Below are positions 20,318 through 41,343 of a stretch of 64,000 nt of DNA, one piece after another. Location of the stretch: positions 2,484,501 to 2,548,500 of the forward strand of contig NZ_CP095049.1 of NCBI RefSeq assembly GCF_022919135.1, written 5' to 3'. The notes beneath the pieces are model-generated. The model saw only the letters and a program-made list of their open reading frames with translations, had not been told where the DNA came from and ran no database searches. This stretch comes from Hymenobacter cellulosivorans (GTDB taxonomy: Bacteria > Bacteroidota > Bacteroidia > Cytophagales > Hymenobacteraceae). A program made the position numbers and the translations under genes. The stretch's first letter is position 1. Each line of letters starts with the position of its first letter.

Positions 20318-20725
20318 ATGCAAAAGCCGCATTTAATCGAGTTTCCCAAGCTGGGCGCTTCCGACATTGGATATATTTCCGTGGGGGAAGCCAATGGTCT
20401 GATTCCATTCACGGTAGAACGCACGTTCTGGACGTATTTCACGCCCGAGAGCATCGTGCGCGGACGCCACGCCCACCACGCTACCGAGCAGGTACTGATT
20501 GCTGTGGCTGGCCGCATCATCGTGACGACGGAAATGCCCGACGGGGAAGTACAAACCTTCGTGCTCGAGTCGCCGCACGTGGGGGTGTACGTACCCCCGA
20601 ATGCCTGGCATACCATGCAGTACTCGCACACGGCCGTACAGCTGGTGTTTGCCTCGACGCGGTACAATGAGCAGGACTACATCCGGAAATACGAAAACTT
20701 CCGCGAGGTATGGGGTTCCAAGTAA
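20318..20725 (+). CDS. fdtA: dTDP-4-keto-6-deoxyhexose 3,4-ketoisomerase (FdtA/QdtA family)
   Basis: A 135-residue cupin of the WxcM-like/FdtA family. Signature: ERTFWTYFTPESIVRGRHAHHATEQVLIAVAG with the catalytic His pair, then VYVPPNAWHTMQYS. It moves the keto group from C4 to C3 of dTDP-4-keto-6-deoxyglucose, preparing a 3-amino sugar. The next genes are an acetyltransferase-like frame (broken) and an aminotransferase, the usual set for Fuc3NAc or Qui3NAc. FdtA and QdtA differ in product stereochemistry, which I cannot tell from the sequence. Its last 16 bases overlap the next reading frame. Confidence 0.87.
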   Translation: MQKPHLIEFPKLGASDIGYISVGEANGLIPFTVERTFWTYFTPESIVRGRHAHHATEQVLIAVAGRIIVTTEMPDGEVQTFVLESPHVGVYVPPNAWHTMQYSHTAVQLVFASTRYNEQDYIRKYENFREVWGSK

Positions 20726-21662
20726 GTTCTGCCCTGGTAGCCGACCGGGCCGATAAACTGTTCTTTTATTCGCCCTATAACTTCCTGCGCAAGCTCGACG
20801 TGGCTACGCAGCAGCGTTTATTCGGAACCGGAGCTGCTGCCGATTACGCCACAGACCCCAATCACCGGGTGTTTGAATTTGTGCAGGACGGTGCTACCGT
20901 TCAGTTCTTGTACGCTTACCTGCCCTGGGATACTAATTTCTTTCAGGCATCGGTGTACAAGGTGTTCACCATCCTATTTGCCAACGGTACGCCGGCGGCG
21001 GTGCTGGCTGCGGCCAGCACCGCTTTCCGGCGGCAGCTGGGGCAGGAGGGAGCCGCCTACTGCTTTGCCGAACTGCCTGCCGAAGACACCCGCGTGGCGC
21101 AGGCTCTGGGGATGCCGGCTGGCGTTTGGTTGAAACCCGTTTGACATACTTCCACGATGCCGTGCAGGGCTTTGACCAGCCCCGGTTTGCGGTGCGCTCG
21201 GCCCAGAAGCAGGAAGCTGCGGCCATTGGGGCTATTTCGGCGGCCGCCCGCAATGAGTACGACCGGTTTCACGCCGACCAATGGTTCAGTGGCGACACCG
21301 GAGACCAGTTTCTGGCGCGCTACGCCTCGGCCGCCGTGGAAGGCTACTGCGACGACGTGTTGGTACCGGCCGAGCCGGATCTGCCCGTCGATTCCTTCCT
21401 GGCCATCAGCGACCTGCAGGCACACGCGGCAAGCTTTGGCACTGGCTTTTCGCGGGTAGTACTTACGGCAGTAGGGCCGGCCAACCGCGGCTGGCACCTG
21501 AAGCTGGTGTCGGAGACGGTGCAGCGGGCCCGGCAAAATGGCGCTGAGTACGTGCTGATGACCACTCAGGCTACCAACCGGGCCGTATTTCGGACCTGCG
21601 AAAAATTGAATTTTAAAGTCGGCGGTTGCAGCCACGTGCTGGCTTGCTCCCATTTCAACTAA
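20710..21662 (+). pseudogene. WecD-like GNAT N-acetyltransferase, frameshifted
   Basis: Two adjoining frames, 20710-21144 and one running to 21662, together read as one ~317-residue acetyltransferase of the WecD-like GNAT type. The first part has LPWDTNFFQASVYKV, the WecD N-terminal phrase that recurs as LPWDTDFLGFPVAQL in the gene at 39405. The second holds the GNAT acetyl-CoA region and ends NRAVFRTCEKLNFKVGG. The break is at the four-G run 21108-21111: one more G would give ALGDAGWRLVETRLTYFHD and restore the frame. It lies between fdtA and fdtB, so it probably acetylated the 3-amino sugar. It could be a true lesion, a phase-variable gene or a sequencing error. Confidence 0.75.
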
Positions 21663-21668
21663 TTCGTT

Positions 21669-22775
21669 ATGAAAGTTCCTTTTCTCTCCTTTACTCCCCA
21701 AAATCAGGCCGTCCGCACCCAAGTTCTGGACGCTATGAGCCAGGTATTCGATTCGCAGTGGTACGTGCTGGGCGAGGCCGTGAAGCAGTTCGAGGCCGAG
21801 TACGCCCGCTTCTCCACTACCACCGAGTGCATCGGGGTGGCCAATGGTCTGGATGCCTTGCATCTGGCTCTGAAAGCCCTCGACGTGAAGGAGGGTGACG
21901 AGGTAATCGTACCGTCCAACACCTACATTGCGACTTGGCTGGCTATTTCCTTCGTGGGTGCGACGCCCATTCCGGTAGAGCCTAACCCGACCACCTACAA
22001 CCTCGATCCAGCCCGTCTGGAAGCGGCTATTACGCCTCGCACCCGCGCCATAATGCCGGTGCACCTCTACGGTCAGGCCTGCGAAATGGACGAAATCATG
22101 GCCATTGCCAAGCGCCACAATCTGTACGTGGTGGAGGACAATGCCCAGTCGCAGGGAGCTACCTACAACGGCGGCATTACCGGCAGCTTCGGCGACGTGA
22201 ATGCCACGAGCTTTTACCCTGGCAAAAACCTGGGTGCTCTCGGCGACGCCGGGGCCGTGACAACCAACGATGCTGAACTGGCCAAGAAAGTGCGTACTCT
22301 GCGCAACTACGGCTCCCAGCAGAAGTACTACAACGAGGTTATCGGCCACAACTCCCGCCTCGATGAACTGCAGGCTGCTGTGCTCAGCGCCAAGCTACCT
22401 ATGCTTATGGAATGGACCGGGCAACGCCAGGAAGTAGCCGCGCTCTACGACCAGCACCTGGCCGGCATTGCCGATCTGCACCTGCCGGCAGTGGCTGCGG
22501 GCGCTACGCACGTGTATCACCTGTACGTGGTGCGCACCACTCAGCGCGATGAGCTCCAGAAATACCTGACGGAGCAGGGCATCGGTACGTTGATTCACTA
22601 CCCGATTCCGCCCCACTTGCAGGAAGCCTACCGTTTCATGAACTTCCAGGCCGGCGCTTTCCCTATTGCCGAGGAACTGGCCAAAACCTGTCTGAGCCTG
22701 CCTATGTGGCCCGGTATGACGCAGGAGCACGTGGAGTTGGTGAGCAACCACATTCGCACTTTCCTGACCCGCTAG
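21669..22775 (+). CDS. fdtB: Sugar aminotransferase, DegT/DnrJ/EryC1 family (FdtB-like)
   Basis: A 368-residue PLP aminotransferase. [21 protein letters not shown] cofactor region, [36 protein letters not shown], and the PLP lysine at residue 186 in [14 protein letters not shown]. The C-terminal part has [13 protein letters not shown], typical of enzymes that aminate C3 keto sugars (FdtB/QdtB/DesV group). It would turn the product of FdtA into a dTDP-3-amino-3,6-dideoxyhexose. It starts 6 bases after the broken acetyltransferase frame, clearly in one operon. Confidence 0.88.
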
Positions 22776-22805
22776 TTCTTCGTTTTCAGGTCTTTTTCCT
22801 TTTTT

Positions 22806-24296
22806 ATGCAAGTTTCTGACAGTGCAGTCAGTACGAGTGCGCCCGCAACAACTGAGTCGCGGGTGCGTGGTGGCTGGCTCCTGGCTCTGGCCGCGGCGGT
22901 GTTGCCGTTTTTGCTGCTGGCTTATTACAACTACCCCAGCATCCACGACGACTACTCCAACTCCAACCGCATCATTCGGATGGGGCGGCTGCCGTTTATC
23001 CGTGAACTGTATGCCACCTGGACCGGCCGCTATACGGAGCTTGCTCTAAAAGCGTATCTGGACCCGTTGTCGTACCAACAGACCACGCTGCTGGCCCGGG
23101 TACAGCCTATTGCCGTTATTCTGCTCCTGGCCCTGGCGGCTTTCTGCTTTTTCCGCTTGTTGCTGCAGGGTGCCCGCACGTCAGTGGTGTTGGCCTGTGC
23201 CCTGCTGCTAACGGTTATGTACCTGAATGGCTTTGAAATGGCCGGCGCCGCCTTCTACTGGTTTGGCGGATACACTTCCTACACGGCCGGTGTAATTGCC
23301 AGCTTGTTTGCTTTTGCGGGCATGGTGGGAATTCACCGCTACCAGGGCCGGGTGGCTATACAGCTCCTGAGCCTGATTAGCGCGGCCAGCTTCAGCATTC
23401 TGGCCATCGGAGCCTACGATGTGTCGATGATGGCTATTTGCTGGGTATTGGGCAGTGCCGTAGCTATATCCTGGTTGTTCAAGCACTCGGCTAAGTGGTG
23501 GTACGTAGCTTTGTTTGCCTTGGCTATGATTGGGGCCTTTGTTGCCGTAACGGCACCCGGCAACCAGGTGCGCGCGGCTATGGCCGGTCGGGACCTGGGC
23601 CAGGTGCTAAAGAGCCCCCAGGCCATTGTTATCATTGTCAAGAGCATCTATTTCGCTCTTACCCAAAGCATTTCCTGGGCCAATAGCCTACTGCTGCTGC
23701 TCGGTAGCGTGCTGCTGGCCGGCCTGCTGACGCGTGTGCGGGAAACGGTGGTATTCAATCTAGGTCGGCTGCACCCGCTGATGCTGGGCCTGTGGCTGCT
23801 GGCTGGGTTAGGGGCTATGATTTTTCCCTCGATCCTGGTCTACCAAACGGTGTGGCCCCATAGCTGGCAGTGTGTTTACTTCTTTTTTCTGATGGGGTGG
23901 GTGTGGCTGCTAGCCACAGTGTTTGCCCGTTATAGTGCCCACTCAGAAGTGCTGCGCGCCCTGAGCAGTCCTAAAGGTTGGCGCCTGACGGCCTTGGCTT
24001 TCTTTGTCCTGTGCTTTTTTGGCAGCACTAGCAACACCCACATGGCTTACCTAGACGTAGCAGCCAAAGCACCTGAGCACTACGCCCGGGTACGGCAGCG
24101 TGAACAGCGGCTCAAGGATGAAGCGGCACGCGGCGTGCAAATCTCAGAGATGCGCCCTTTGTACAGCAACGAGGATGCCTACCGGGCTCCGAGTGTGCTG
24201 TACACCTACGATTTCAATAACGACGACGCGGCCCAGTACGCCATTTACTATGGGGTTGACAGCGTGGTTATCAAGCCTAACCCTTACCATCCGTAA
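22806..24296 (+). CDS. Polytopic membrane protein, DUF6056/GT-C-like
   Basis: 496 residues with a short hydrophilic N-terminus and about ten hydrophobic segments. The first outer loop contains YNYPSIHDDYSNS, an acidic pair placed like the catalytic loop of GT-C glycosyltransferases, followed by WTGRYTELALKAYL. The soluble C-terminal ~80 residues have YTYDFNNDDAAQYAIYYG. It resembles the DUF6056 group of bacterial membrane proteins, an assignment from memory and not certain. Its setting among glycosyltransferases, just before a GtrB-like GT2, suggests a sugar-transfer role at the outer face of the inner membrane. Confidence 0.65.
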   Translation: MQVSDSAVSTSAPATTESRVRGGWLLALAAAVLPFLLLAYYNYPSIHDDYSNSNRIIRMGRLPFIRELYATWTGRYTELALKAYLDPLSYQQTTLLARVQPIAVILLLALAAFCFFRLLLQGARTSVVLACALLLTVMYLNGFEMAGAAFYWFGGYTSYTAGVIASLFAFAGMVGIHRYQGRVAIQLLSLISAASFSILAIGAYDVSMMAICWVLGSAVAISWLFKHSAKWWYVALFALAMIGAFVAVTAPGNQVRAAMAGRDLGQVLKSPQAIVIIVKSIYFALTQSISWANSLLLLLGSVLLAGLLTRVRETVVFNLGRLHPLMLGLWLLAGLGAMIFPSILVYQTVWPHSWQCVYFFFLMGWVWLLATVFARYSAHSEVLRALSSPKGWRLTALAFFVLCFFGSTSNTHMAYLDVAAKAPEHYARVRQREQRLKDEAARGVQISEMRPLYSNEDAYRAPSVLYTYDFNNDDAAQYAIYYGVDSVVIKPNPYHP

Positions 24297-24363
24297 GCCT
24301 GGTTTTTAGCTGGTCGGGGGCGCAAGTATGCGTCTTGCTGGCTGCTTTAACCAAATGGAGCCC

Positions 24364-24371
24364 TACCTTTA
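24364..24371 (+). promoter_or_regulatory. Candidate -7 box before the GtrB-like gene
   Basis: TACCTTTA differs from TAnnTTTG in the last base and lies 39 bases before the ATG at 24411. Confidence 0.35.
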
Positions 24372-24410
24372 CCCCGCGAGCAGCCCATTGCTCCGTGTTT
24401 CACAGACCTT

Positions 24411-25358
24411 ATGCCCAAGCTCTCAGTTATTATTCCCTGTTACTTTAACGAAGGCAACATTCCGGTAACCGCTCAGGCTCTGATTGCCAACGAAGCGGGC
24501 TTTCCGGCCGGGGTAACCTTCGAATACGTAATGGTTGATGATGGCTCCGGCGACAACACCGTGCGGGAACTGCTGCGGTTTCGTGACCAGTACCCCGACC
24601 GGGTTCAAGTAGTTGAGCTGGTCAGCAACGTCGGCTCTTACAATGCTATTGTTGCCGGCATGGCCCACGCCACCGGCGACTGTATGGCCATCATCACGGC
24701 CGATATGCAGGACCCGCCGGAGCTGATGGTGCAGATGTACGACTACTGGCTGAAGGGCTTTAAACTCGTTATCGGCAACCGCCAGGACCGCGAAGAAACC
24801 GGCCTGCAAAAGTGGTTTGCCAACCTGTTTCACAAGACGATGAAGAAAGTGGCCCTGTCTAACATTCCAGACGGTGGCTTCGACTTCGTGTTCTTCGACC
24901 GGCAGGTGTGCGACGAAGTAGTACGCCTGCAGGAGCGCAACAGCAACATTTTCTACCTGATGGTGTGGCTGGGCTTCACCTATGTGAATATCCCCTACGT
25001 ACGCCGCAAGCGTGAAATCGGGAAGTCGCGCTGGACGCTGCAGAAGAAAATCAAGCTCTTTATCGACTCGATTCTGTCGTTCTCCTTTTTCCCTATCCGC
25101 CTGATTTCCATTTTGGGCATGATGCTGGGCGGGGTAGCAATGCTGTATGGGCTCTACATTTTGGCTATGAAGGTACTAGGCAATATCAGCGCCGCTGGCT
25201 GGACTACCTTGATGGTAGTCGTGCTGTTTGTATCCGCCTTTCAGATGATAGCTCTAGGCATTATTGGTGAATACGTATGGCGTGGCTTAGATGCTGCCCG
25301 CCAGCGGCCCTTGTACGTAGTCAAAAATGTGTACCGTGACACGACGGGCCATGCCTAA
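24411..25358 (+). CDS. GT2 glycosyltransferase, GtrB/ArnC-like, membrane-anchored
   Basis: 315 residues. Cytoplasmic GT2 domain: LSVIIPCYFNEGNIPVT, VDDGSGDNTV, the DxD-type TADMQDPPELM and GGFDFVFFDR. The signature KREIGKSRWTLQKKIKLFIDS precedes two C-terminal transmembrane helices (~230-250 and ~265-290). This layout matches GtrB/ArnC/YfdH enzymes, which attach a sugar to undecaprenyl phosphate. It follows a GT-C-like gene that could use the product. The sugar is unknown. Confidence 0.9.
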   Translation: MPKLSVIIPCYFNEGNIPVTAQALIANEAGFPAGVTFEYVMVDDGSGDNTVRELLRFRDQYPDRVQVVELVSNVGSYNAIVAGMAHATGDCMAIITADMQDPPELMVQMYDYWLKGFKLVIGNRQDREETGLQKWFANLFHKTMKKVALSNIPDGGFDFVFFDRQVCDEVVRLQERNSNIFYLMVWLGFTYVNIPYVRRKREIGKSRWTLQKKIKLFIDSILSFSFFPIRLISILGMMLGGVAMLYGLYILAMKVLGNISAAGWTTLMVVVLFVSAFQMIALGIIGEYVWRGLDAARQRPLYVVKNVYRDTTGHA

Positions 25359-25458
25359 ATAAGCAAAGTACAGTATCTGCATAGATATCTACGCAACAGC
25401 GGTTTAACGGTGAATCACTTGATAAGCCAGGCCCTATACAGCCTTCTGAATATTTCAG

Positions 25459-26757: not shown

Positions 26758-26890
26758 GCATGAGGCGCTTCAGGGCCGGCATTCAAGGGCGTTCTGCCCT
26801 AGGATTTGGTCTGTCAAATGAAAGCCCAGTAGCCGTGAAGAAGTACTGTAGTAGCGAAATTGGTTCTAGCAGCCGGCTGGTCTGCGCGCG

Positions 26891-26929: not shown

Positions 26930-27003
26930 TGGCTTCGTTGCGTTTCAGGCGATGCCAAGCTGTCTAACCCTAGAACAGTAGTTGCCGATGACAATTGACC
27001 TGC

Positions 27004-28773
27004 ATGAATACTGGAATAATTAAATATAGTGTGTCGAGCATCCTATACTACCTCACTGCGGCGGAGCGGCGGAAGGTAGTGTGGATGTTTTTCCTGCTCA
27101 TATTAGCTTCCCTGCTGGACGTTGTGGGCCTCGCGGCTCTGGTGCCGGTTATGATGGTAGCAGCGGAGCCCGGTGGTATTCATAAGAACAAGTATTTCGA
27201 CTGGCTATTTCAGGCCCTGAATTTTGAGTCGGAACGGTCCTTTTTGCTAGTTCTGATCGTCGCTATTCTGGTATTCTTTCTGCTAAAGAATGCCTTTTCA
27301 GTATGGATCAACCACTTGCAAACCAAGTTTACGGCAGAAGTGGGCCTGGCCATCGTGCGAACTCAGTTGGATAAGTACCTGAACTTTCCGTTTTGGCACT
27401 TCAACGACCTTGGTTCTGCGAGCCTGATCAATAGTTCTCTGCAGGTGCCGAGTACTTACGTGAACATGATTATCCGGCCATTGTTCATCTTCTTTGCCGA
27501 ATTGACAGTAGTGCTGGTTATTGTAGTGGGTATCCTGGTGTATCAGCCGCTGCTGCTGGTTATTCTGGTGTTTGTGCTGCTGCCGACTACCTTCCTGACT
27601 TACCGCTCCATGCGGGCCCGCTCACAGATAATCGGTAACCGGATCAATGAACTCAACCCTATTTCCATCTCCACAATTACCGACCTGTTTACCGGCTTTG
27701 TGGAACTGCGCCTAGCTGATAAGCAAACCCGCTTCCGGAACAAGCTGCTCGATAGCCAGAAGGAGATTCGTAAGCTCGACGCCGAGGCGTATCTGTACAC
27801 ATTGTTGCCCCTGCGTATTATCGAGATGGTCGCCATATTCGGGGTGCTGACCATCTTTATGTATGCCCTCTTCGTGGCTGATGAGTCTACCAGTCTGATT
27901 ACGTTGGTGGGCTTGTTTGCTGCCGCGGCTTACCGCCTGATGCCATCCGTCAACCGTATGCTCATGTCGATGGTGCAGCTTAAGCAGAGCCAGTACACAA
28001 TAGAAAACCTGGAAAGCTTCCGCGAAGAGGAGTATGATCAGAAGCTGAGTCCTAACCAGCAACCCCTGGAATTCCACGAATCCATTGCCTTTCAGAACGT
28101 TTCTTTCACTTTTCCCAACGGTGAGGCCCCGGTACTGCGCGGAATTTCGCTGAAAGTTAAGAAAGGGGAGAAGATCGGCTTTATCGGTAGTTCAGGTTCG
28201 GGTAAGACCACGCTGATGAACATCTTGCTGCGTTTCTACACCGAACAGCAAGGCCACATTCTCGTCGATGGCCGCCCGCTCACTCCCCAGCACCTGAAGG
28301 CCTGGCACAGCATCATCGGCTACGTAAAGCAGGATACGTTCCTGATGCAGGCCTCTATCCGGGACAATATCACGCTGGGCGACCCACAGGTAGACGAAGA
28401 CCGCCTGCACTACGCCATTGAGCAGGCCTCGCTGCAAGGCTTCGTTCAGAACCTGCCCGACGGCCTAGATACCTTTATCGGGGAGCGGGGTTCCAAGCTT
28501 TCCGGGGGGCAGCGCCAGCGGATCGGGATTGCCCGGGCCTTGTATAAGCGCACTGAAATCTTGGTGCTGGATGAGGCAACCAGCGCCCTCGACAACGAAA
28601 CAGAGCGGGAAGTAAACGAGGCTATCAACAAGCTGTCGAAAACCGAAATCACCATTCTCATTATTGCCCACCGCATTACTACACTACGGGAATGCGACCG
28701 GATCTACGAACTGGGTCAGGGAGAGATTGTGGCGCAACATCAGTACGCCGAACTGGCGCAAAGCATCGTATAA
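27004..28773 (+). CDS. ABC exporter, lipid-linked oligosaccharide flippase type
   Basis: A 589-residue half-transporter: six transmembrane helices (~20-330), then an ATPase domain. Walker A GSSGSGKTT near residue 395, Q-loop VKQDTFLM, signature LSGGQRQR, Walker B EILVLDEATS and H-loop IIAHR are all intact, so it should work as a homodimer. In a glycan locus it is most like PglK-type flippases that turn undecaprenyl-linked oligosaccharide across the inner membrane; a lipid A exporter role is the alternative. The ATG at 27004 is used; a TTG three codons earlier is less likely. Confidence 0.88.
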   Translation: MNTGIIKYSVSSILYYLTAAERRKVVWMFFLLILASLLDVVGLAALVPVMMVAAEPGGIHKNKYFDWLFQALNFESERSFLLVLIVAILVFFLLKNAFSVWINHLQTKFTAEVGLAIVRTQLDKYLNFPFWHFNDLGSASLINSSLQVPSTYVNMIIRPLFIFFAELTVVLVIVVGILVYQPLLLVILVFVLLPTTFLTYRSMRARSQIIGNRINELNPISISTITDLFTGFVELRLADKQTRFRNKLLDSQKEIRKLDAEAYLYTLLPLRIIEMVAIFGVLTIFMYALFVADESTSLITLVGLFAAAAYRLMPSVNRMLMSMVQLKQSQYTIENLESFREEEYDQKLSPNQQPLEFHESIAFQNVSFTFPNGEAPVLRGISLKVKKGEKIGFIGSSGSGKTTLMNILLRFYTEQQGHILVDGRPLTPQHLKAWHSIIGYVKQDTFLMQASIRDNITLGDPQVDEDRLHYAIEQASLQGFVQNLPDGLDTFIGERGSKLSGGQRQRIGIARALYKRTEILVLDEATSALDNETEREVNEAINKLSKTEITILIIAHRITTLRECDRIYELGQGEIVAQHQYAELAQSIV

Positions 28774-28817: not shown

Positions 28818-29909
28818 ATGAATATCAACGTCACAAAGTCCTTTTTGCCGCCGCTGGAAGACTATGTTGAATATCTCACCGGCATTTGGGACCGAGTACA
28901 TCTGACCAACGCTGGCCCGCTGGTCGTGGAATTGGAAAAGCAGCTGCGAGAATACCTGGGGGTAAAGCACTTGTTTTTTGTCAATAATGGGACGATTGCG
29001 CTGCAGATTGCCATTAAGGCCCTGGAGCTCAAAGGCGAAGTACTGACGACTCCCTTTTCCTACGTCGCGACGACCTCTAGTCTGGTGTGGGAAGGATGCA
29101 CGCCTGTTTTTGTGGATATTGACCCCGAAACGCTCTGCATTGATCCTACCTTGCTCGAAGCGGCCATTACGCCCCGCACTGTTGCTATCATGGCTACTCA
29201 CGTGTATGGCAACCCCTGCGACGTAGAAGCCATCGAGGCCATCGCCAAGCGGCATAACCTTCGGGTAATTTACGACGCGGCTCATGCCTTCGGCGTGACG
29301 TACAAGGACAACTCAGTGTTGAACTACGGCGATATTTCGACGCTGAGCTTCCACGCTACCAAGCTGTTCCATACGGTAGAAGGCGGCGCTATCGTGACGG
29401 ATAATGACGAGCTGGCGCACAAGATCAGCTACATGCGCAACTTCGGCCACAACGGACCCGAGGCCTTCTGGGGGGTAGGTGTGAATGGCAAAAGCTCCGA
29501 ATTTCATGCTGCCATGGGCCTGTGCGTGCTGCCTCGCGTGGATGAGCTGATTCGGCGGCGTAAGGAAATTAGTGAGCGGTACGACCGGCTGCTGGCCGAT
29601 ACGCCCCTGGCGCGGCCGCGCATTCATGAGCACACGCGCTATAATTACTCATACTACCCCACCCTGCTGCCATCGGAAGAAGTGCTGCTCCAGGTGCGTG
29701 ACGCCCTCAATGCCCGCGATATCACGCCCCGGCGTTATTTCTACCCCTCACTGAATACGCTGGACTACACCAACAAGCAGCCGGCGCCGGTATCGGAAAG
29801 TGCTTCGGTACGGGCCCTGTGTCTGCCGCTCTATTACGACCTGACCGATGAGCAGGTTGACCGGGTGTGCGCCGTTATCCACGAGTCATTAGCGCAGCTG
29901 CACCAGTAA
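28818..29909 (+). CDS. Sugar 4-aminotransferase, DegT family (VioA-like)
   Basis: A 363-residue PLP aminotransferase starting MNINVTKSFLPPLEDYV. VNNGTIALQIAIKAL, TTPFSYVATTSSLVWEGC, VDIDPETLCIDP, and the PLP Lys182 in SFHATKLFHTVEGG. The wording is close to VioA-like enzymes that make dTDP-4-amino-4,6-dideoxyglucose (Qui4N); this is family recognition and the sugar was not proven. The next gene is a PglD/VioB-like acetyltransferase, which supports a Qui4NAc route. The longer frame starting inside the ABC gene was rejected. Confidence 0.85.
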   Translation: MNINVTKSFLPPLEDYVEYLTGIWDRVHLTNAGPLVVELEKQLREYLGVKHLFFVNNGTIALQIAIKALELKGEVLTTPFSYVATTSSLVWEGCTPVFVDIDPETLCIDPTLLEAAITPRTVAIMATHVYGNPCDVEAIEAIAKRHNLRVIYDAAHAFGVTYKDNSVLNYGDISTLSFHATKLFHTVEGGAIVTDNDELAHKISYMRNFGHNGPEAFWGVGVNGKSSEFHAAMGLCVLPRVDELIRRRKEISERYDRLLADTPLARPRIHEHTRYNYSYYPTLLPSEEVLLQVRDALNARDITPRRYFYPSLNTLDYTNKQPAPVSESASVRALCLPLYYDLTDEQVDRVCAVIHESLAQLHQ

Positions 29910-29979: not shown

Positions 29980-30612
29980 ATGCTAATAATAGGAGCGCGG
30001 GGGCACGCCATAGAACTCCTGCACGCCTTCGAAAACGTGTGGCAGCCGGATACGGTAGCTTTCTACGACGATGTGACGCCCAACATGCCGGATAAGGTAT
30101 TTGACTCTTATCCGCTGCTGAAAAGCCCCCGAGAGGCCGCCGACTGGCTGGCCATGGACTGCCGCTTTGTGCTCGGTGTGGGGGGCGTCAAGGTCCGGCA
30201 GATGCTGGCTCGTAAGTTTGAGGCCCTGGGTGGGGAACTGACTTCGGCCCTAGCGGCTACGGCAATGATTAGCCGGTATGCTTCCTCCTTAGGGCCGGGG
30301 CTGAATGTAATGCAGCAGGCGCTGATTTCGCCCAATGCCCAAGTAGGGGAGGGTACGCTGCTCAACACAGCGTGCAGTATTCACCACGATGTGGTCGTTG
30401 GGGCCTTCTGTGAAATTGCGCCCGGTGCCCGCCTGCTTGGTAACGTCCAGGTGGGCGACCTGTGCTTTGTAGGAGCCAACGCAACGGTGCTGCCGCGCGT
30501 ACGGCTCGGCAACCACGTGGTGGTCGGGGCCGGAGCAGTCGTCAACCAGGATGTGCCCGACCATACCACGGTCGTAGGTGTACCGGCCCGGCCACTTGCT
30601 TCTAAGCGCTGA
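29980..30612 (+). CDS. Left-handed beta-helix sugar acetyltransferase, NeuD/PglD family
   Basis: 210 residues. Rossmann-like N-terminal part (MLIIGARGHAIELLHAFENV, then FVLGVGGVKVRQ) followed by a hexapeptide beta-helix (~95-205): ISPNAQVGEGTLLNTACSIHHDVVVGAFCEIAPGA-type rungs with the catalytic His region ACSIHHD, ending DHTTVVGVPARPL. NeuD/PglD/PerB/VioB enzymes acetylate the amino group of nucleotide amino sugars. Directly downstream of the DegT aminotransferase, it most likely acetylates that product. The ATG 29980 fits the family start. Confidence 0.88.
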   Translation: MLIIGARGHAIELLHAFENVWQPDTVAFYDDVTPNMPDKVFDSYPLLKSPREAADWLAMDCRFVLGVGGVKVRQMLARKFEALGGELTSALAATAMISRYASSLGPGLNVMQQALISPNAQVGEGTLLNTACSIHHDVVVGAFCEIAPGARLLGNVQVGDLCFVGANATVLPRVRLGNHVVVGAGAVVNQDVPDHTTVVGVPARPLASKR

Positions 30613-31759: not shown

Positions 31760-32695
31760 ATGGCTGCTACTCCTTTCGTCAGTGTCATGGTTGTAATCTA
31801 TAACCATGACCAGTATGTAGAGCAGGCATTGGATAGGATTCTGGCGCAACGTGTCAATTCTCCCTGGGAAGTGGTGGTAGCCGATGATTGTTCGATAGAT
31901 GGTACAGCCGCAATTTTGGCTCGTTATCAACAACGCTACCCCGACATCGTACGGGTGCTGCCTGTCGAACTGGGGGTATCCCGCAACTTTGAGCGGGCTA
32001 TGCAAGCTTGCCTGGGTAAGTTTGTGGCCATAGTGGAAGGCGACGATTATTGGACCAGCCCGGACAAGCTTCAACTGCAGGCAGAGTTTATGCAGAGTCA
32101 TCCTGATTTCAGTATGTGCTTTCACAATGCTGAGGTAATAGGTAATGTATGAGGATGATCCTACCCGCGCCAGTCACGTGATGAACGGCCAAGAAAAGCT
32201 GGAGTACACCCTGGACGATATTACTGCCGGCTGGTTTATTGCCACGGCTTCGGTCATGTATCGGAACGGGGTGCTACCCGAGCTGCCGGCCTGGATACAC
32301 GAATCAGTAATAGTGGACCTGCCGTTTTTTCTATGCTGACTACCAAAGGCCGTGTCGGCTATCCGCCGCAAACGATGAGTGTCTATCGGGTACATAGCCA
32401 CGGGGTGACCCGCTCCAGCAAACAGGAACTGTTTCTGCTACAACTGGGAAAAATGTGTCAGTATCTCGACCAGGAACTACAGTATAAGTATCACCGTAAC
32501 CTAACTCTCAAGCAAGGTGAGACTTACAGTGTGTTGGCCGGAGTGATGGCCAACAATCATCATTATAACAAAGCCCGGCAGTATTTTCTGCTGTCCCTGC
32601 GTTGTAAGCTCACGGTTGGAAGGCTGCCTTCCGTGCAGGATATAAAGACACTAATAACTTTGATTTTGCCGGTCCTACGGCGCCGAGTGGCTTAA
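31760..32695 (+). pseudogene. GT2 glycosyltransferase with two frameshifts
   Basis: Three frames join into one ~311-residue GT2 protein parallel to the gene at 30663. The first (31760-32152) has VSVMVVIYNHDQYVEQALD, VVADDCSIDGTAAI and IVEGDDYWTSPDKLQLQ. A second frame, offset by +1, carries ITAGWFIATASVMYRN to VDLPFFL. The third (32333-32695) is back in the first phase with VGYPPQTMSVYRVHSHG. So there is a +1 shift at 32141-32149 and a -1 shift at about 32325-32333 beside a six-T run. All expected parts are present in order, so decay is recent or the indels are sequencing errors. Confidence 0.75.
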
Positions 32696-33814: not shown

Positions 33815-34456
33815 ATGTCCATTCTTGGCCGCGTCCGCAATAAGATTAATGAAGAGCTGTACCAGCGCCGCCGCCGCCGGGAGCAGCAGCAGTTGCACAA
33901 CCGCGACTTTACCGTCATTTCCAATGACTGCTGGGGCGCCGAGGTTTATAAGCACTTCGACCTGCCCTTCAATACGCCCTTCATCGGCCTGATGCTGATG
34001 GCCCCCGACTTTATTGAGTTGCTGCGCAACCCGCGCTACTACTTGAGCCAGCCGCTGGTGTTTCAGGAAAAGTCGCGCTACGACATGATTAACGAGCTGC
34101 AAAAAACGCACAAGCATCCGTTTCCGGTGGCCACACTCGGCGACAAAGTCGAGCTTCAGTTTCTGCACTACCACTCCCAGGAAGAAGCCGCAGCGAAGTG
34201 GCCGCGCCGGGTGGAGCGCATCAACTGGGACAACCTGCGGGTGAAATTCGACGGCAGCAAAGACTTCGCCACGCCCGAGCTGGTGCGCGAATTCACCAAG
34301 CTGCCCTACCAAAAGCTACTGCTGCTGGAAAAGCCCGTGGCCGGCGTGCCCGAAGGCGTACTAGTGCCCGACTACACCACCAACGGGATGGAGCTGTTTC
34401 GCCGTTCTTTGTCTCACTTTGATCTGCTGAACTGGCTTCAGCCTAAGTCGGCCTAA
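33815..34456 (+). CDS. DUF1919 exopolysaccharide protein
   Basis: A 213-residue protein of the DUF1919 family: RDFTVISNDCWGAEVYKHFDLPFNTPFIGLML is its clear signature, with MAPDFIELLRNPRYYL next. There is no signal peptide or membrane helix. Such proteins recur in polysaccharide loci and are thought to be transferases or modifiers; the reaction is unknown. The N-terminus is strongly basic (QRRRRREQQQ). It sits between glycosyltransferases with gaps of 24 and 36 bases, so it is part of the same operon. Confidence 0.85.
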   Translation: MSILGRVRNKINEELYQRRRRREQQQLHNRDFTVISNDCWGAEVYKHFDLPFNTPFIGLMLMAPDFIELLRNPRYYLSQPLVFQEKSRYDMINELQKTHKHPFPVATLGDKVELQFLHYHSQEEAAAKWPRRVERINWDNLRVKFDGSKDFATPELVREFTKLPYQKLLLLEKPVAGVPEGVLVPDYTTNGMELFRRSLSHFDLLNWLQPKSA

Positions 34457-34492
34457 GGCCACGCCCTGTCTTTCACCTGATTTATCGAGCTT

Positions 34493-35512
34493 ATGTCGCC
34501 CCGCGTTTCGATCCTGGTGCCGGTATATAATGTTGAAGCCTACATTCAGGAAACTCTGCGCAGTCTGCTCAACCAGACCTACCAGGACTTCGAAATTGTG
34601 GTGGTCAATGACCGGTCGACGGACCGCACGGCCGAGCGGATTGCTGAGCTAAGTGACCCGCGTATTCGGCTGTATACCAATGAGGTAAACCTGGGCCGCG
34701 CCGGCACCGACAACTACGGCATGACCCTGGTGCAGGGCGAGCTGGTGGCCAAGATGGACGGCGACGACCTGTGCCACCCCGAGCGCCTGGCCCGGCAGGT
34801 AGCTTTCCTGGATGCGCATCCCGAAGTCGACATCGTCGGCAGCTGGGTGCAGTGCTTCGGGGCGGGCCAAATGCTGTTCGAGTACCCGGCCCAGCCCGCC
34901 GATACCCGGGCCATGATGGTCTTCAACATGACCATCGGCAACCCCTCGGTGATGCTGCGCACGAGCCTGTGGCGCGAAAAAGGCCTGCGCTACGACGACC
35001 AGCTGCGCCAGACCGAGGACTATGACTTCTTCGGCCGCTATCTGCCCCAGCTCACCATCGCCAACCTGCCCGAGGCCCTGGTGCAGTACCGGGTGCTGGC
35101 CCATAGCGTGCGGCCGGCCGTGTACGAGGAGCGGTTGAAGGTAGCCAACCAGATCCGGGAGCGGCTGCTGGGCACGTTTGGTGTGCCGTATTCCGCGCGG
35201 GAGCTGCACTTGCACAACACCATTTCCCACCACCCGTTTCACCTCGGCGACATCACGCTGGCTGAAGTACACGACTGGCTCTGGAAAATCTATGTCAGCA
35301 ACGAACAGAGCCACTTTGCCGACTCGGCAGCCATGCTGCGGGCCGTGGCGGAGCGGTGGTTTCTGACCTGCTACCTCAACCCCGACCGGAGCCACAATTC
35401 CTGGCGCGAGTACTACCGCCAGCCCCTGGCCAAACACTACAAGCCCGCCCCCCGCTTATTTGCTAAATTTGCGGTCAAAAATTTCGTGCTGCGCCACCTC
35501 AAGCGCCGCTAG
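34493..35512 (+). CDS. GT2 glycosyltransferase
   Basis: 339 residues. VSILVPVYNVEAYIQETLRSLL, VVVNDRSTDRTAE, AKMDGDDLCHPERLA with the DxD, and the acceptor-side TEDYDFFGRYLPQLT. The family is certain and its substrate unknown. The C-terminal ~100 residues are helical and basic (KPAPRLFAKFAVKNFVLRHLKRR), which suggests association with the inner face of the membrane. Confidence 0.9.
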   Translation: MSPRVSILVPVYNVEAYIQETLRSLLNQTYQDFEIVVVNDRSTDRTAERIAELSDPRIRLYTNEVNLGRAGTDNYGMTLVQGELVAKMDGDDLCHPERLARQVAFLDAHPEVDIVGSWVQCFGAGQMLFEYPAQPADTRAMMVFNMTIGNPSVMLRTSLWREKGLRYDDQLRQTEDYDFFGRYLPQLTIANLPEALVQYRVLAHSVRPAVYEERLKVANQIRERLLGTFGVPYSARELHLHNTISHHPFHLGDITLAEVHDWLWKIYVSNEQSHFADSAAMLRAVAERWFLTCYLNPDRSHNSWREYYRQPLAKHYKPAPRLFAKFAVKNFVLRHLKRR

Positions 35513-35530
35513 TTTCGTCTGTTCCCCGGC

Positions 35531-36781
35531 ATGAGTCCTTCGTCTGCGCGCAAAAACATCCTGTTGCTTATTCCCCAGCTCACCTACGGCGGTGCCGAGC
35601 GGGTTTTCCACGACCACGGGCAGGAGCTAGCCCGGCAGCATCGGGTAATCGAGTGCGTGTTCGACAGCGGTACAGAAGTCGCCTTTCCTACCCAAAACCA
35701 GCTGGTTGCGCTGGATGTGCCTGCCGGTGCCGGCATTGTAGGCAAGCTAAGCACATTTATCAAGCGCGTGCAGCGGGTGAAAGCCCTGAAGCGGGAGCAT
35801 AATATCGATGTCTGCATCAGCCATCTGGAGGGCGCCGATTACCTGAATCTGCTCAGCAAAGGCCCCGAGCAGGTGCTCTTGTGCATTCATAATTCCAAGC
35901 GCCACGACCCCAACATTCGGGGGGCTCTGGGCTGGCTCCGCCGCCGGGTGCTGATGCCCTTGCTCTACCGCTCCGCCGACCGGATTGTGCCCGTGAGCCG
36001 GGACCTGCGCCAGGAGCTGATTGATATGTTTGCCCTGCCGCCCCAGAAGGTGGTTACCATCAACAACTTCTTCGACGTGGAAGGCATCCGGCGCCGTAGT
36101 CAGGAGCCGTTGCCGGCCGCTACGCAGGCGCTGTTTGCCAACCATCCCATCCTGATTACGGCCGGCCGCCTGGCCCGGGAAAAGAATCAGAAAGCCCTGA
36201 TTGACGTGCTGCACGCCCTGCGCGCCCAGGGTCAGACTGCACCCAAGCTGGCTTTGCTCGGCGACGGTCCGCTGCGGGCCGACGTTATTGGGCGCTGCCA
36301 GGAGCTCGGCTTGCGCAGCTGGCAGGTGTGGGACGAGCAGCCCCTGACGCAAGACTTCGACGTGTACTTCTTCGGCTTTCAGGCCAACCCTTTCCAGTAC
36401 ATTGCCCGCGCCAGCGTGTCGCTCTTGTGCTCGGCTACCGAAGGCTTCCCCATGGCCTTGTGCGAGGCCATGGCCTGCGGCGTACCGGTAGTTTCCACTG
36501 ATTGTCCCACCGGCCCCCGCGAAATTCTGGCTCCCCAAACGCCGGCCACTCAGTATGCTGCTGCGCCCGAAACGGCCGAGTTTGGCGTGCTAATGCCCCT
36601 GCTGGCCGAAGGTACACTGAGCACGGTAGCGCCCGTATGGGCAGCTACTCTGAGCACTATGTTGGCCGATTCTGCGCAACGCACGTACTATGCCGCGCAA
36701 GCGTATGCCCGGGTCCAGGATTTTGCTCCCCATAAAATCATGCAGCAATGGGAATCCTTGCTTAACGAATCACCCCAGTAA
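35531..36781 (+). CDS. GT4 glycosyltransferase
   Basis: A 416-residue GT-B enzyme. The N-terminal half starts NILLLIPQLTYGGAERVF, with the glycine-rich loop for the acceptor. The C-terminal half has TAGRLAREKNQKALIDVLHAL, LLGDGPLRADV and the donor-binding SATEGFPMALCEAMACGVPVV (E-x7-E type). It retains the stereochemistry of the donor sugar. It overlaps the next gene by one base (TAATG), so the two are probably translationally coupled. Confidence 0.9.
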   Translation: MSPSSARKNILLLIPQLTYGGAERVFHDHGQELARQHRVIECVFDSGTEVAFPTQNQLVALDVPAGAGIVGKLSTFIKRVQRVKALKREHNIDVCISHLEGADYLNLLSKGPEQVLLCIHNSKRHDPNIRGALGWLRRRVLMPLLYRSADRIVPVSRDLRQELIDMFALPPQKVVTINNFFDVEGIRRRSQEPLPAATQALFANHPILITAGRLAREKNQKALIDVLHALRAQGQTAPKLALLGDGPLRADVIGRCQELGLRSWQVWDEQPLTQDFDVYFFGFQANPFQYIARASVSLLCSATEGFPMALCEAMACGVPVVSTDCPTGPREILAPQTPATQYAAAPETAEFGVLMPLLAEGTLSTVAPVWAATLSTMLADSAQRTYYAAQAYARVQDFAPHKIMQQWESLLNESPQ

Positions 36782-38004
36782 TGAAGCTCCGCCACGTCAT
36801 AGCCTACGTTTACAACAGCTGTAATGACCCCCTTTTCAAAGCCAACATGCTGCCCTTCATGCAGCACGCAGGCCGCCAGCAGCCCGATATCCGGCTGCAT
36901 CTGATTACCTACGAGCAGGAAGAATACGCTCTAAACGAAGAGCAGGCCGCGCAGATGCGCGCTTATCTGGCCGCCGATAACATCGAGTGGCACCCGTTGC
37001 AGTGGCATTCGGGCCGCTTCAAGCTGCTCAAAAAGGCATATGATTTGCTCAGCGGCTTCTTTCTGGTACTCAAGCTGCGTATCAGTCCCGGAGCCCGCAG
37101 CATTGGGGCCCTGGGCACTATTGCCGGTGCCTTTGCCTTCGTGATGGCCAAGCTGCTGGGGCTGCGGTATTATGGCTTCCAGTACGAGCCCCACAGCGAG
37201 TTTATGCGCGACTGCCACGTGTGGCCCGAAACCAGCCTGGCTTATCGTGGCCTCCACTACATGGAGCGCGTATCGGGTATGCAGGCCGATATTCTTTCCA
37301 CGGGCACCGTGCACATGGTGAACCGGATGAAAGAATGGGGCACCAAGGCCGAAGTATACAAGCTGCCCAGCTGCGTCGACGAAACCAAGATTTTCTTCCG
37401 CCCTGAAGGCCGGACGCGGGTGCGGGCTAAATACAATATTCCCGCCGACAAGCAGGTGATTCTGTACCTGGGCAAATTCGGCGGCATTTACTACGACCGA
37501 GAAATTGCAGTGCTGTTCCGCGTATTCCACCAGCAGAACCCGGACCTGTATTTTCTCATCGTCTCGCCCGATGCCCCAGCCCACATTGCCGGACTGATGC
37601 AGGCCGAAGGGCTGCCCGAAACGTGCTACACCATCACCCGCAGTCCCTACGAGCAGGTACAGGACTACATTTCTGCCGCCGACTTTGGCGTGGTAGCCGT
37701 GCCTTCCCTACCGTCGCAAAAATTCCGCTCTCCTATTAAAGTGGGGGAGTACCTCTGCTGCGGATTGCCGTACCTGGTGTGCGCCGGTGTGTCGGAAGAC
37801 GACTTGGTGGCCGAGAAGTACGACGTGGGCGTTGTCGTCAATGGCTTCACCGAAGCTGAGGCCATGCGGGTATACCCCCGGGTTCAGCAACTGCTTACTA
37901 TGGAAAAAACGGCGTTGCGCGCCAAGTGCCGGGCGGCGGGCATTGCCTACCGCGGCCTGAGCCAGTATCTGTCTACGGCCGACCATATCTTTGCGCAGCT
38001 CTAG
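36781..38004 (+). CDS. GT4-like glycosyltransferase
   Basis: 407 residues, GT-B fold. An N-terminal domain (ANMLPFMQHAGRQ, GTIAGAFAFVMAKLLGLRYYGFQYEPHSEFM) is followed by a C-terminal domain with VILYLGKFGGIYYDREIAVLF, DYISAADFGVVAVP and SPIKVGEYLCCGLPYLVC, where the Glu and Gly of the donor site sit. The family is secure but divergent. Its start overlaps the stop of the previous GT4 gene. Confidence 0.85.
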   Translation: MKLRHVIAYVYNSCNDPLFKANMLPFMQHAGRQQPDIRLHLITYEQEEYALNEEQAAQMRAYLAADNIEWHPLQWHSGRFKLLKKAYDLLSGFFLVLKLRISPGARSIGALGTIAGAFAFVMAKLLGLRYYGFQYEPHSEFMRDCHVWPETSLAYRGLHYMERVSGMQADILSTGTVHMVNRMKEWGTKAEVYKLPSCVDETKIFFRPEGRTRVRAKYNIPADKQVILYLGKFGGIYYDREIAVLFRVFHQQNPDLYFLIVSPDAPAHIAGLMQAEGLPETCYTITRSPYEQVQDYISAADFGVVAVPSLPSQKFRSPIKVGEYLCCGLPYLVCAGVSEDDLVAEKYDVGVVVNGFTEAEAMRVYPRVQQLLTMEKTALRAKCRAAGIAYRGLSQYLSTADHIFAQL

Positions 38005-38169
38005 AAGGCGCTGGCGCTTCGGTAGGCCGCGGCTTTTGCCCAACTTTTGGGTACGTATTGCGTCCTATGTATTCGGGTATTGTCGTACTTTGGGCAACGA
38101 TTTTCGACTGGTTTACCGTACCGTCATCTCTCTGCATTCTGAAAAATAACATACTAAATTCTTCTTCTG

Positions 38170-38952
38170 ATGAGCCAGGAACTAATCGATTTTGAGAAGC
38201 TGCAAGCCCACGTTAACGAGCTGAAGCAGCAATGGAACGACCCCAAAAAACCGTTTCACTACCTCGTGTACGACGGCTTTTTCCGGCCTGAAGCTGCCGA
38301 GCAAATTCTGGCTGCTTACCCCGATGTGACGACCGGCAACTGGGACGGCACCACCTACATCAATCAGAAAAATAAGTTTGCCCTCACCAAATTCGGCGCC
38401 GACTATCCCCTGCTGCAGCAGGTGTTCGACGAGTTCAACGGGGAGAAATTCCTGCACGTGGTAGAAGACATCACCGGCATTCCCGAGCTGATGGGCGATG
38501 ATGAGCTGTTCGGTGGCGGCCTGCACCAGTCCGTAACGGGCGCTTTCCTGGACGTACACGTTGACTTCAACTACCACCAGACTACCAAGTACCACCGGCG
38601 CATGAACGCCATTGTGTACATGAACAAGGACTGGAAGGACGAGTACAACGGCCATCTGGAACTGTGGGACATGAAAAAGAAAAAGCAGCTGGAAAACGTA
38701 GCTCCCGTTTTCAACCGTTGCGTGATTTTCGAAACCAACGAGGTTTCCTTCCACGGTCATCCCAAGCCTCTGGCGGCTCCCGGGGGTATTACCCGTAAGT
38801 CGCTGGCGGTGTACTACTACACCAAAACTCGCCCGGCCAACGAAATTGCCGGTGAGCACAACACGGTGTATGTAAACACGGAAGGAACCGGCGGTTTGTT
38901 TAAGAACCTGAAGTCGGGTCTTAAGGCCGCTGTTGAACGAGTAAAGAAATAA
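38170..38952 (+). CDS. 2-oxoglutarate/Fe(II)-dependent oxygenase
   Basis: 260 residues. The double-stranded beta-helix has the iron triad in AFLDVHVDFN (HxD) and the distal His in SFHGHPKP. The 2-oxoglutarate Arg is in ITRKSLAVYYY, and GHLELWDM belongs to the same core. It hydroxylates something with 2-oxoglutarate and oxygen. Position at the end of a glycosyltransferase series suggests a role on a glycan or glycolipid, but prolyl-hydroxylase-like relatives act on proteins too. It has its own 165-base upstream gap and a terminator behind, so it may be separately transcribed. Confidence 0.85.
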   Translation: MSQELIDFEKLQAHVNELKQQWNDPKKPFHYLVYDGFFRPEAAEQILAAYPDVTTGNWDGTTYINQKNKFALTKFGADYPLLQQVFDEFNGEKFLHVVEDITGIPELMGDDELFGGGLHQSVTGAFLDVHVDFNYHQTTKYHRRMNAIVYMNKDWKDEYNGHLELWDMKKKKQLENVAPVFNRCVIFETNEVSFHGHPKPLAAPGGITRKSLAVYYYTKTRPANEIAGEHNTVYVNTEGTGGLFKNLKSGLKAAVERVKK

Positions 38953-39010
38953 GCGCACCTTAAAGCCTACCTTGCAGCAGCAGTTGGCAGCTTGGTATAC
39001 GAATAGTTTT

Positions 39011-39042
39011 CACCCGCTCGGCTACCGCTGAGCGGGTGTTTT
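39011..39042 (+). terminator. Terminator after the oxygenase gene
   Basis: A 9-bp stem (39011-39019 with 39030-39038) followed by a T run. It closes the transcription unit and marks a break before the WecD/WecE pair. Confidence 0.8.
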
Positions 39043-39404
39043 TTCATCTGGGTACCTCAAGCGCACCGATTGTGAATAGGTTGAAAGGTACCGGACTCCT
39101 GGCGGGTAGAGCCGCTACAATTTCCGCTACTGGCTAAACCTGGTCCTGGGTAGGAGAGCATCTTCCGCTGCGAGGCTCCGGCTCACAGGCAACGTTGGCG
39201 GTTCAGGCTGCTAGTTGCTTTCCTGTGGCTAACAATTCAGGTGTTGAGCTTTGCCAGCCGGATAGGTTTCCTCTGATTTTACTCCGGACTTATCATTTTT
39301 CATCCGGGCATCGTTGGGTAAACCAGGTAAAATAGTTGAAGTGTCCAAGCCCGGCCTGTCTACATGGTAGCGGAGTATATTGGAACAGAAAAACAGGTGC
39401 ATGC
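39043..39404. other. Non-coding gap between two glycan sub-loci
   Basis: About 360 bases with no credible gene in any frame and no recognised RNA. It separates the terminator of the left block from the WecD-like gene and should hold the promoter of the latter; no clear TAnnTTTG is seen. It could be a remnant of a lost gene. Confidence 0.45.
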
Positions 39405-40142
39405 ATGAACACTACCGTAACAATGAACCCCGCTCTGGAAATCTTGCCCTGGGATACCGATTTCCTGGGCTTTCCCGTGGCTCAGCTTTGTCCGGTGGCT
39501 TCGTCGCTCGGCAGCATAACAGAGGCACTTGAGCAGGCCCGTCGCCAGAATATCCGGCTGCTGTACTGGTTTGTAGATCCTTCCGATGCCGAGGCGGTTG
39601 TGACGGCTCAGGGGCTGGGGGCCCGGCTCGTCGACCGCAAAGTGACGTACTCCATGCCCGTGGCAACCGGGGCCGAACCCTGGGCCGAAGGTATAGAGCC
39701 GATTAGCGAAGTTACCCCGCAGCTCCGCTCATTGGCTTTGCAAAGTGGTTATTACTCCCGCTTTCGCACCGACCCAGGGTTTGCCCCCAAGGTATACAAA
39801 CAGCTCTACACACGCTGGATTGAAAGCTCCGTAGCCGGTAGTATGGCCCGGGAAGTGCTGGTGTACCGCCCTGCGCCCGCCACCCGTGAAGTGGGCCTGC
39901 TCACCCTGGGGGTACACAACGGTTGCGCTAGGATCGGACTGCTGTCGGTTGAGGAAATGGCGCGCGGTCAGGCAATCGGTACGAAGTTGATTATGGCCGC
40001 CCAGCACCGCGCCGCTGAGTGGGGCCTGTCAACAATTCAAGTGGTTACCCAGCAGGAAAACACGAAAGCCTGCCGCTTTTATGAGCGGTGTGGATTTCGG
40101 CCGGAGCAGGTTCAACATATTTACCATATATGGATGGAGTGA
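39405..40142 (+). CDS. wecD: WecD-like dTDP-fucosamine N-acetyltransferase
   Basis: A 245-residue GNAT protein from the ATG at 39405. N-terminal LPWDTDFLGFPVAQL and LLYWFVDPSDAEA are WecD-like. The GNAT core has ARIGLLSVEEMARGQAIGTKLIMAAQ with the acetyl-CoA loop and KACRFYERCGF. It should acetylate the 4-amino group of dTDP-4-amino-4,6-dideoxygalactose. The next gene is the matching aminotransferase. An upstream extension of the frame was rejected because it has no family match. Confidence 0.82.
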   Translation: MNTTVTMNPALEILPWDTDFLGFPVAQLCPVASSLGSITEALEQARRQNIRLLYWFVDPSDAEAVVTAQGLGARLVDRKVTYSMPVATGAEPWAEGIEPISEVTPQLRSLALQSGYYSRFRTDPGFAPKVYKQLYTRWIESSVAGSMAREVLVYRPAPATREVGLLTLGVHNGCARIGLLSVEEMARGQAIGTKLIMAAQHRAAEWGLSTIQVVTQQENTKACRFYERCGFRPEQVQHIYHIWME

Positions 40143-40206
40143 ATATATAATAGGAGTTTATTCAGTAAGCTCAACTTATCTTGCTGCTATTTCCCTAAAG
40201 CCTTGT

Positions 40207-41343
40207 ATGAACCCCGCCTATATTCCATTCAATAAGCCCTACCTATCCGGTAACGAATTGCGCTACATAGAGGAGGCAGTTCGTTCAGGTAAGATATCCG
40301 GTGATGGAATATTCACAAAGCGTTGTCACAACTTCTTCGAGCAGGAGCTGGGCTTTAAAAAAGTGCTGCTGACTACCTCCTGCACGGACGCGCTGGAGAT
40401 GGCCGCCCTGCTGATTGATATTCAGCCCGGGGACGAGGTAATCGTGCCCGCTTACACGTTTGTTTCAACGGCCAACGCCTTCGTGTTGCGGGGCGCTACC
40501 ATTGTCTTTGCGGATAGTTCCGCCCTAAGTCCTAATCTGGACCCTGACCAGCTGGAGGCGCTGATTACCCCACGTACCAAAGCCATTGTGCCGGTGCACT
40601 ATGCCGGGGTTGCCTGCAACATGGACCCGATCATGGCCCTTGCGCGCCGCCATAACCTGTTTGTGGTGGAAGATGCCGCCCAAGCCATCGACAGCTACTA
40701 CAAAGGGCGGAAACTGGGCTCCATTGGTCATTTGGCGGCTTTTTCTTTCCACGAAACCAAGAATATTATTTCCGGGGAAGGAGGAATGCTGGCTGTCAAT
40801 GACCTGCAGTTTGCCGAGCGGGCCGAAATTTTGTGGGAGAAAGGCACCAACCGGTCGTCTTTCTTCCGCGGCGAAGTGGATAAGTACAGCTGGGTTGATT
40901 ATGGTTCATCCTTCTTGCCTTCCGACATGATTGCGGCCTTTCTCTGGGCCCAGCTCGAAAACATCGGTGATATTCAGCAGCGGCGCAAGCATATCTGGCA
41001 CCGGTATTACGAGGCCTTAAGTCCTCTGCAGGCAATGGGCGTGCAGCTGCCCGTAATTCCTGACTACGCCACCAACAACGGGCACATGTTTCATCTTGTG
41101 TGCCGGAGCCTAGCCGAGCGCACTGCGCTGATTGAGCGGTTGAAGGCGGAAAACGTACATCCCGTGTTTCACTACTTATCTTTGCACGCCAGCCCTTTTT
41201 ACGCGGCTAAGCATGATGGCCGCGTCTTGCCCCACGCCGACCACTACAGTGACTGCCTAGTTCGCCTGCCGTTCTATTACGAGCTTACGGATGCCAATCA
41301 GGAATTCATCAACCAGCTTATCCTGGACTTCTACCAGGGCTAG
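40207..41343 (+). CDS. wecE: WecE-like dTDP-4-amino-4,6-dideoxygalactose transaminase
   Basis: A 378-residue PLP enzyme. The start IPFNKPYLSGNELRYIEEAV and SGKISGDGIFTKRC are WecE/RffA-specific. Then TTSCTDALEMAALLI, VPAYTFVSTANAFVLRGA, FVVEDAAQAIDS and PLP Lys185 in FHETKNIISGEGG. It transaminates dTDP-4-keto-6-deoxyglucose to the Fuc4N nucleotide with glutamate. Paired with WecD 64 bases upstream, it gives dTDP-Fuc4NAc, known from enterobacterial common antigen; here it must serve another surface glycan. Confidence 0.9.
   Translation: MNPAYIPFNKPYLSGNELRYIEEAVRSGKISGDGIFTKRCHNFFEQELGFKKVLLTTSCTDALEMAALLIDIQPGDEVIVPAYTFVSTANAFVLRGATIVFADSSALSPNLDPDQLEALITPRTKAIVPVHYAGVACNMDPIMALARRHNLFVVEDAAQAIDSYYKGRKLGSIGHLAAFSFHETKNIISGEGGMLAVNDLQFAERAEILWEKGTNRSSFFRGEVDKYSWVDYGSSFLPSDMIAAFLWAQLENIGDIQQRRKHIWHRYYEALSPLQAMGVQLPVIPDYATNNGHMFHLVCRSLAERTALIERLKAENVHPVFHYLSLHASPFYAAKHDGRVLPHADHYSDCLVRLPFYYELTDANQEFINQLILDFYQG

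Follow-up and report, generated by a model that had tools for sequence, protein, structure and literature searches.

The closest described systems to the one reported here are small gene sets for activated amino sugars. VioA and VioB of Escherichia coli O7 make deoxythymidine diphosphate (dTDP)-linked N-acetylated 4-amino-4,6-dideoxyglucose (Qui4NAc), and WecE and WecD, encoded in the enterobacterial common antigen (ECA) cluster of E. coli, make the corresponding galacto sugar (dTDP-Fuc4NAc). The FdtABC set of Aneurinibacillus and the QdtABC set of Thermoanaerobacterium combine a ketoisomerase and a 3-aminotransferase with the hexapeptide enzymes FdtC and QdtC, and E. coli O103 carries a ketoisomerase-GNAT-aminotransferase trio. 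We analyzed a window of 64,000 nucleotides (C1:2484501-2548500, C1 being the chromosome of this genome, G000) from the single-contig 6.10 Mb genome of Hymenobacter cellulosivorans (NZ_CP095049.1), in which Fdt, Vio and Wec modules, each with a DegT-family aminotransferase, share one sugar locus. Literature searches turned up no description of an FdtA-GNAT-FdtB cassette or of a VioA/WecE/FdtB trio, and Hymenobacter was unnamed among the matches listed in the broader searches. We regard the locus as probably a surface-polysaccharide cluster at the level of the genus Hymenobacter, with three routes from dTDP-4-keto-6-deoxyglucose, in which the FdtB sugar would be a periplasmic decoration.

The three aminotransferases fall into separate groups of dTDP-sugar enzymes. 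The tree of 22 rows, calculated with IQ-TREE, included one GDP-sugar and one UDP-sugar reference. Reference sequences came from annotated records (VioA/VioB of E. coli O7 IAI39, WecE/RffC of K-12, the O103 ketoisomerase, GNAT and aminotransferase, and ArnB) and from solved structures (QdtB, DesV, WlaRG, DesI, and Per), among which we take entry 2po3 to be DesI; the chain names of PglE and PseC used below follow in part a survey passage. Entries 2oga, 5u1z, and 3bn1 are named DesV, WlaRG, and Per in that passage (PMC7725333). The window WecE groups with E. coli WecE, and the VioA-like protein with E. coli VioA and next with DesI (100/98). FdtB lies in an eight-row clade with QdtB, WlaRG, O103 FdtB, DesV, and one more DegT protein of this genome, within which the branching order is only partly resolved. 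Forcing the four Hymenobacter VioA-like rows and GDP-perosamine synthase into one clade was 94.6 log units worse (approximately unbiased (AU) test, p 5.6e-6), by which GDP-perosamine synthase was rejected as the identity of the VioA-like enzyme. An earlier note on this DNA had predicted three distinct dTDP-sugar routes and had named two placements as contrary evidence, neither of which was found: no two aminotransferases share a group, and none lies with the GDP- or UDP-sugar enzymes. The tree, the AU test and the rmlA and rmlB genes of the genome, described below, thus support three routes at the level of sequence. Its description of the products as three 4,6-dideoxy amino sugars was incorrect, since the FdtB product would be a 3-amino-3,6-dideoxyhexose.

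Comparison with solved structures gave 443 bits to E. coli WecE (56% identity) for the window WecE, against 117, 105, and 102 bits to WbpE, PseC, and PglE. FdtB matched QdtB far above WbpE, PglE, and PseC (263, 97, and 90 bits). As for the VioA-like protein, DesI (205 bits) and Per (203 bits) remained ambiguous by solved structures alone, followed by WbpE (168 bits), and the ambiguity was resolved by the E. coli VioA reference in the tree; PglE (85–88 bits) and PseC (137 bits) were rejected by comparison with DesI. The protein is thus probably a dTDP-Qui4N aminotransferase with dTDP-Qui4N as its predicted product, and most of its named top homologues are from Hymenobacter. The assignment is further supported by a relative, genome G015, in which two WbqC-family genes (PF08889, 235 and 217 bits) and a homologue with 45% identity to E. 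coli VioB (L085/L086) come after a VioA homologue (59% identity). The acetyltransferase beside the window VioA is instead of the PglD/NeuD type, sharing 24% identity with E. coli VioB in an alignment of 150 residues; its PDB matches were perosamine N-acetyltransferase (87 bits), the pilin glycosylation protein 4m98 (84 bits), and VioB 7txp (69 bits). WbqC-like open reading frames (ORFs) were also seen by eye in genome G014 (L089/L090), where several genes, including uxs, fdtB, and vioA, are in pieces.

Table 1. Features of the Hymenobacter cellulosivorans sugar locus (window positions; bit scores from profile, PDB or sequence comparisons).
Feature	Position	Strand	Evidence
FdtA-type dTDP-sugar 3,4-ketoisomerase (cupin)	20318..20725	+	PF05523 117.5 bits (cut-off 23)
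WecD-fold GNAT, candidate C3-amino acyltransferase	20710..21662	+	Two frames here; fold from G015 protein
FdtB/QdtB-type dTDP-3-keto-6-deoxyhexose 3-aminotransferase	21669..22775	+	PDB QdtB 405 bits; tree clade 100/100
DUF6056 membrane protein, GT-C-like predicted fold, candidate periplasmic transferase	22806..24296	+	PF19528 45 bits; AlphaFold model
ArnC/GtrB-type polyprenyl-phosphate glycosyltransferase	24411..25358	+	PDB 5ekp (sll0501) 180 bits; ArnC 131 bits
ABC transporter, PglK/MsbA-like, candidate flippase	27007..28773	+	PglK 297 bits (under cut-off 1000); MsbA 295 bits (under cut-off 602)
VioA, putative dTDP-4-keto-6-deoxyglucose 4-aminotransferase (Qui4N)	28818..29909	+	43% to E. coli O7 VioA, 288 bits; clade 100/99
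PglD/NeuD-type hexapeptide acetyltransferase (putative VioB role)	29980..30612	+	TIGR03570 (NeuD/PglB/VioB family) 186 bits, cut-off 161
WecD/RffC-like GNAT	39405..40142	+	29% to RffC; PDB WecD 54 bits
WecE, dTDP-4-keto-6-deoxyglucose 4-aminotransferase (Fuc4N)	40204..41343	+	NF008687 568 bits, cut-off 375; clade 100/100
PMT_2-type membrane protein (family name indicates GT-C type), two frames	41392..42824	+	PF13231 31.6 bits, first piece

Profile searches and the ORF list placed every module part where the earlier note had put it, and the note's claim that RmlA and RmlB are encoded outside the window was borne out as well. The genome-wide profile search located RmlA at C1:1333400 (479 bits, cut-off 361) and RmlB at C1:1331087 (477 bits, cut-off 365), a few kilobases apart at about C1:1.33 Mb on the chromosome that carries the sugar locus; from there, the two enzymes would supply dTDP-4-keto-6-deoxyglucose to all three routes. 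The window gene at 19313-20296 is rmlB-like only and, at 126 bits, was rejected as RmlB. The genome holds 12 DegT-family matches, six of them strong (285–398 bits) and the remainder at or below 36.6 bits. The grouping in the locus is not due to chance because three of the six strong genes lie within 20 kb. Among the strong genes elsewhere, one (G000:C1:3543780-3544883) passes the curated PseC cut-off (456 against 423.5 bits), and this genome may therefore also encode a route of the pseudaminic-acid type; another is nearest to the LegC-type model, below its cut-off (377 against 420 bits), and the third passes none of the curated cut-offs listed.

The trio recurs in the genus and is not peculiar to this genome. 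Among 120 Hymenobacter genomes, this one included, we found the FdtA family in 119, FdtB in 116, WecE in 85, and VioA in 49, counts that hinge on the E-value limits (1e-150 for WecE, 1e-110 for VioA and FdtB); G014, with its fragmented vioA and fdtB, was left out of the VioA-positive count. FdtB, VioA, and WecE are all present in at least 35 genomes and lie within 30 kb in at least 21. Linkage counts took in 112 of the 119 FdtA-bearing genomes; within 40 kb, FdtB and WecE occur together in at least 61 and all three in at least 21. The earlier note had called the combination unusual. In favor of this, a passage of a survey of 12,939 genomes reports that the use of more than one positional isomer is rare among organisms (PMC7725333), but within Hymenobacter the linked trio is recurrent. 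We also read eight relatives gene by gene, using BLAST with the window proteins: uxs, the glycosyltransferase gene gt4_42925, and orf43911 are kept in all eight, ugd in seven, and asnB, which lies near the ends of the stretches, in four, and the N-acyl genes vary.

In the Fdt route, FdtA would shift the keto group to C3, FdtB would aminate C3, and the GNAT may acylate the amine. The window FdtA is 38% identical to the O103 ketoisomerase and scores 81 bits with PDB 2pa7. It has His at FdtA position 97, whereas Ile precedes the conserved Gly; FdtA has the pair Arg17/His97 and QdtA presumably Tyr17/Arg97; the galacto configuration at C4 (Fuc3N) is the more likely one. Many genomes of the genus carry a second FdtA-family gene (L023-L052), and Arg, which we take to be the QdtA residue, occupies position 97 in 17 of the 28 rows taken from the highest-scoring loci. 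In genus g46 of the order, two tandem FdtA-like stretches precede the GNAT (L122, L125, L126, and L124), with about 34% and 39–41% identity to the window FdtA in the first three loci; the upstream stretch of L124 (29%) shows up only with the O103 query.

The GNAT distinguishes this module from the described systems. Ketoisomerase and 3-aminotransferase are shared with the FdtABC and QdtABC sets, whereas the acyltransferase has a predicted WecD fold, modeled on the intact G015 protein, rather than the hexapeptide type. The gene order, with the GNAT in the middle, is identical to that of O103, but BLAST (E 1e-3) found no match between the O103 GNAT and the two pieces in the window, and the O103 protein was rejected as a close relative. 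The Tyr aligned with Tyr208 of RffC, presumably its active-site residue, is absent from FdtA-linked GNATs in all 13 rows with letters there, out of 14 (L115 is gapped). As the earlier note had recognized, the window gene is broken: two overlapping ORFs (20710-21144 and 21126-21662), aligning to residues 1–135 and 132–317 of the G015 protein, stand where most relatives have a single frame. The Fdt route could thus be impaired in this strain, leaving only two acylated sugars, yet we regard this as unlikely, though the least so of the alternatives, as both halves retain 86 and 92% identity and the PMT_2-type gene has a similar change of frame, a pattern that an assembly error would explain as well. 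Even without acylation, the 3-amino sugar might still find use.

FdtB is linked to an ArnC/GtrB-type gene, which lies within 6 kb of it in 82 of 93 genomes. The protein sll0501 (PDB 5ekp), matched by the window enzyme, is presumably GtrB. In the window, between the two genes, lies the DUF6056 protein, whose AlphaFold model has a predicted local distance difference test (pLDDT) score of 90; its GT-C likeness rests on rows 1–42 of the VIA comparison, and a Foldseek search with the model gave no significant match. An ArnC/GtrB-type enzyme and a GT-C-like protein adjoining sugar genes resemble the ArnC/ArnT and GtrABX decoration systems, from which the predicted donor, an acylated 3-amino-3,6-dideoxyhexose, differs. 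The link of FdtB to such an enzyme, and here also to the putative GT-C protein, suggests that its sugar is delivered apart from the main assembly line. Most likely, the ArnC/GtrB-type enzyme would place the first sugar on undecaprenyl phosphate, and the neighboring GT-C-like protein would then transfer it on the periplasmic side. At least one of the three sugars looks like a decoration added late and not like a member of one chain.

In the second route, VioA would aminate C4 in the gluco form and the PglD-type enzyme would acetylate the product to Qui4NAc. Located between the PglK/MsbA-like transporter and GT2 genes, this sugar would be the strongest candidate for a residue of the chain. In the third, WecE would aminate C4 to give the galacto configuration, and acetylation by WecD would then yield Fuc4NAc. 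The wecD-wecE order and the WecE protein resemble E. coli ECA, but the WecD-like GNAT fails the curated WecD/RffC equivalog NF008212 (100 bits against a cut-off of 219), the neighbors differ from the ECA cluster genes, and the host lies outside Gammaproteobacteria. The Tyr aligned with RffC Tyr208 is kept in this GNAT and two aligned relatives (3/3). A WecD-like neighbor lies within 1.5 kb of WecE in five of ten genus loci searched, including the present one, and in none of ten phylum loci searched. The PMT_2-type gene after wecE is a single ORF of about 500 residues in G015 and G020, and the third sugar may be treated like the first through this protein. In genome G117, BLAST with the window proteins showed no wecD homologue around wecE; a formyltransferase-family gene (PF00551, L094:6096-6782) near wecE adjoins a WbqC gene and a glycosyltransferase gene of the 24411 type.

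The two acyltransferase-3 genes in the locus, the two predicted GT-C-type proteins, and the reshuffling of modules, with wecE opposite to its outer neighbors in G005, G020, G046, and G062, would also suit two or more glycans sharing one locus, e.g., a chain resembling an O-antigen plus a distinct glycan of a glycolipid or glycoprotein. We find this improbable, slightly more so than an impaired Fdt route, as the conservation of uxs on one side and of gt4_42925 and orf43911 on the other suggests inheritance as a unit. Least probable is the single-polysaccharide reading of the earlier note, taken here to mean that all three sugars are residues of one cytoplasmically assembled repeat unit: the single run of co-directional genes that contains all modules and at least seven GT2/GT4 genes, and the linked trio, speak for it, but the FdtB partners speak against it, and so do the 40-kb counts, in which FdtB and WecE are together far more often than all three.

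Some further genes of the locus deserve mention. A short GT2 piece at 31760-32152 (75.7 bits, matching the N-terminal region of the profile) and the ORF at 32333-32695, which has no Pfam match, lack a counterpart at that place in G015 and G020 and look like a GT2 remnant. A 2-oxoglutarate-Fe(II) oxygenase (38170-38952) is 96% identical in G015 and G046, and a DUF1919 protein (33815-34456) shows 92% identity in G015.

The by-product of most interest is the FdtA-linked WecD-fold GNAT with its ArnC/GtrB-type and GT-C-like partners. Tentatively, and with less confidence than the proposal of three routes with a periplasmic FdtB sugar, we suggest both that, within the order Cytophagales, Hymenobacter and further genera have a WecD-fold GNAT that lacks the active-site Tyr of WecD and took the place of the hexapeptide FdtC/QdtC for dTDP-3-amino-3,6-dideoxyhexose, and that in Hymenobacter FdtA-GNAT-FdtB, the ArnC/GtrB-type enzyme and the GT-C protein form a self-contained cassette that would make the sugar, load it on undecaprenyl phosphate, and add it in the periplasm, much as the Arn system does but with a 3-amino sugar.

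Of 395 sampled genomes of the phylum, 58 (31 of 170 genera) encode a WecE-family protein above the curated cut-off; among 14 control genomes, E. coli alone does. This result, which concerns the aminotransferase, appears at odds with the survey passage that confines Fuc4NAc to Gammaproteobacteria (PMC7725333). The Hymenobacter loci provide orthologue sets with which to test how three aminotransferases of a single cell draw on one precursor pathway but set nitrogen at different positions and configurations, and they offer a candidate new acyltransferase and a candidate decoration cassette for 3-amino sugars.
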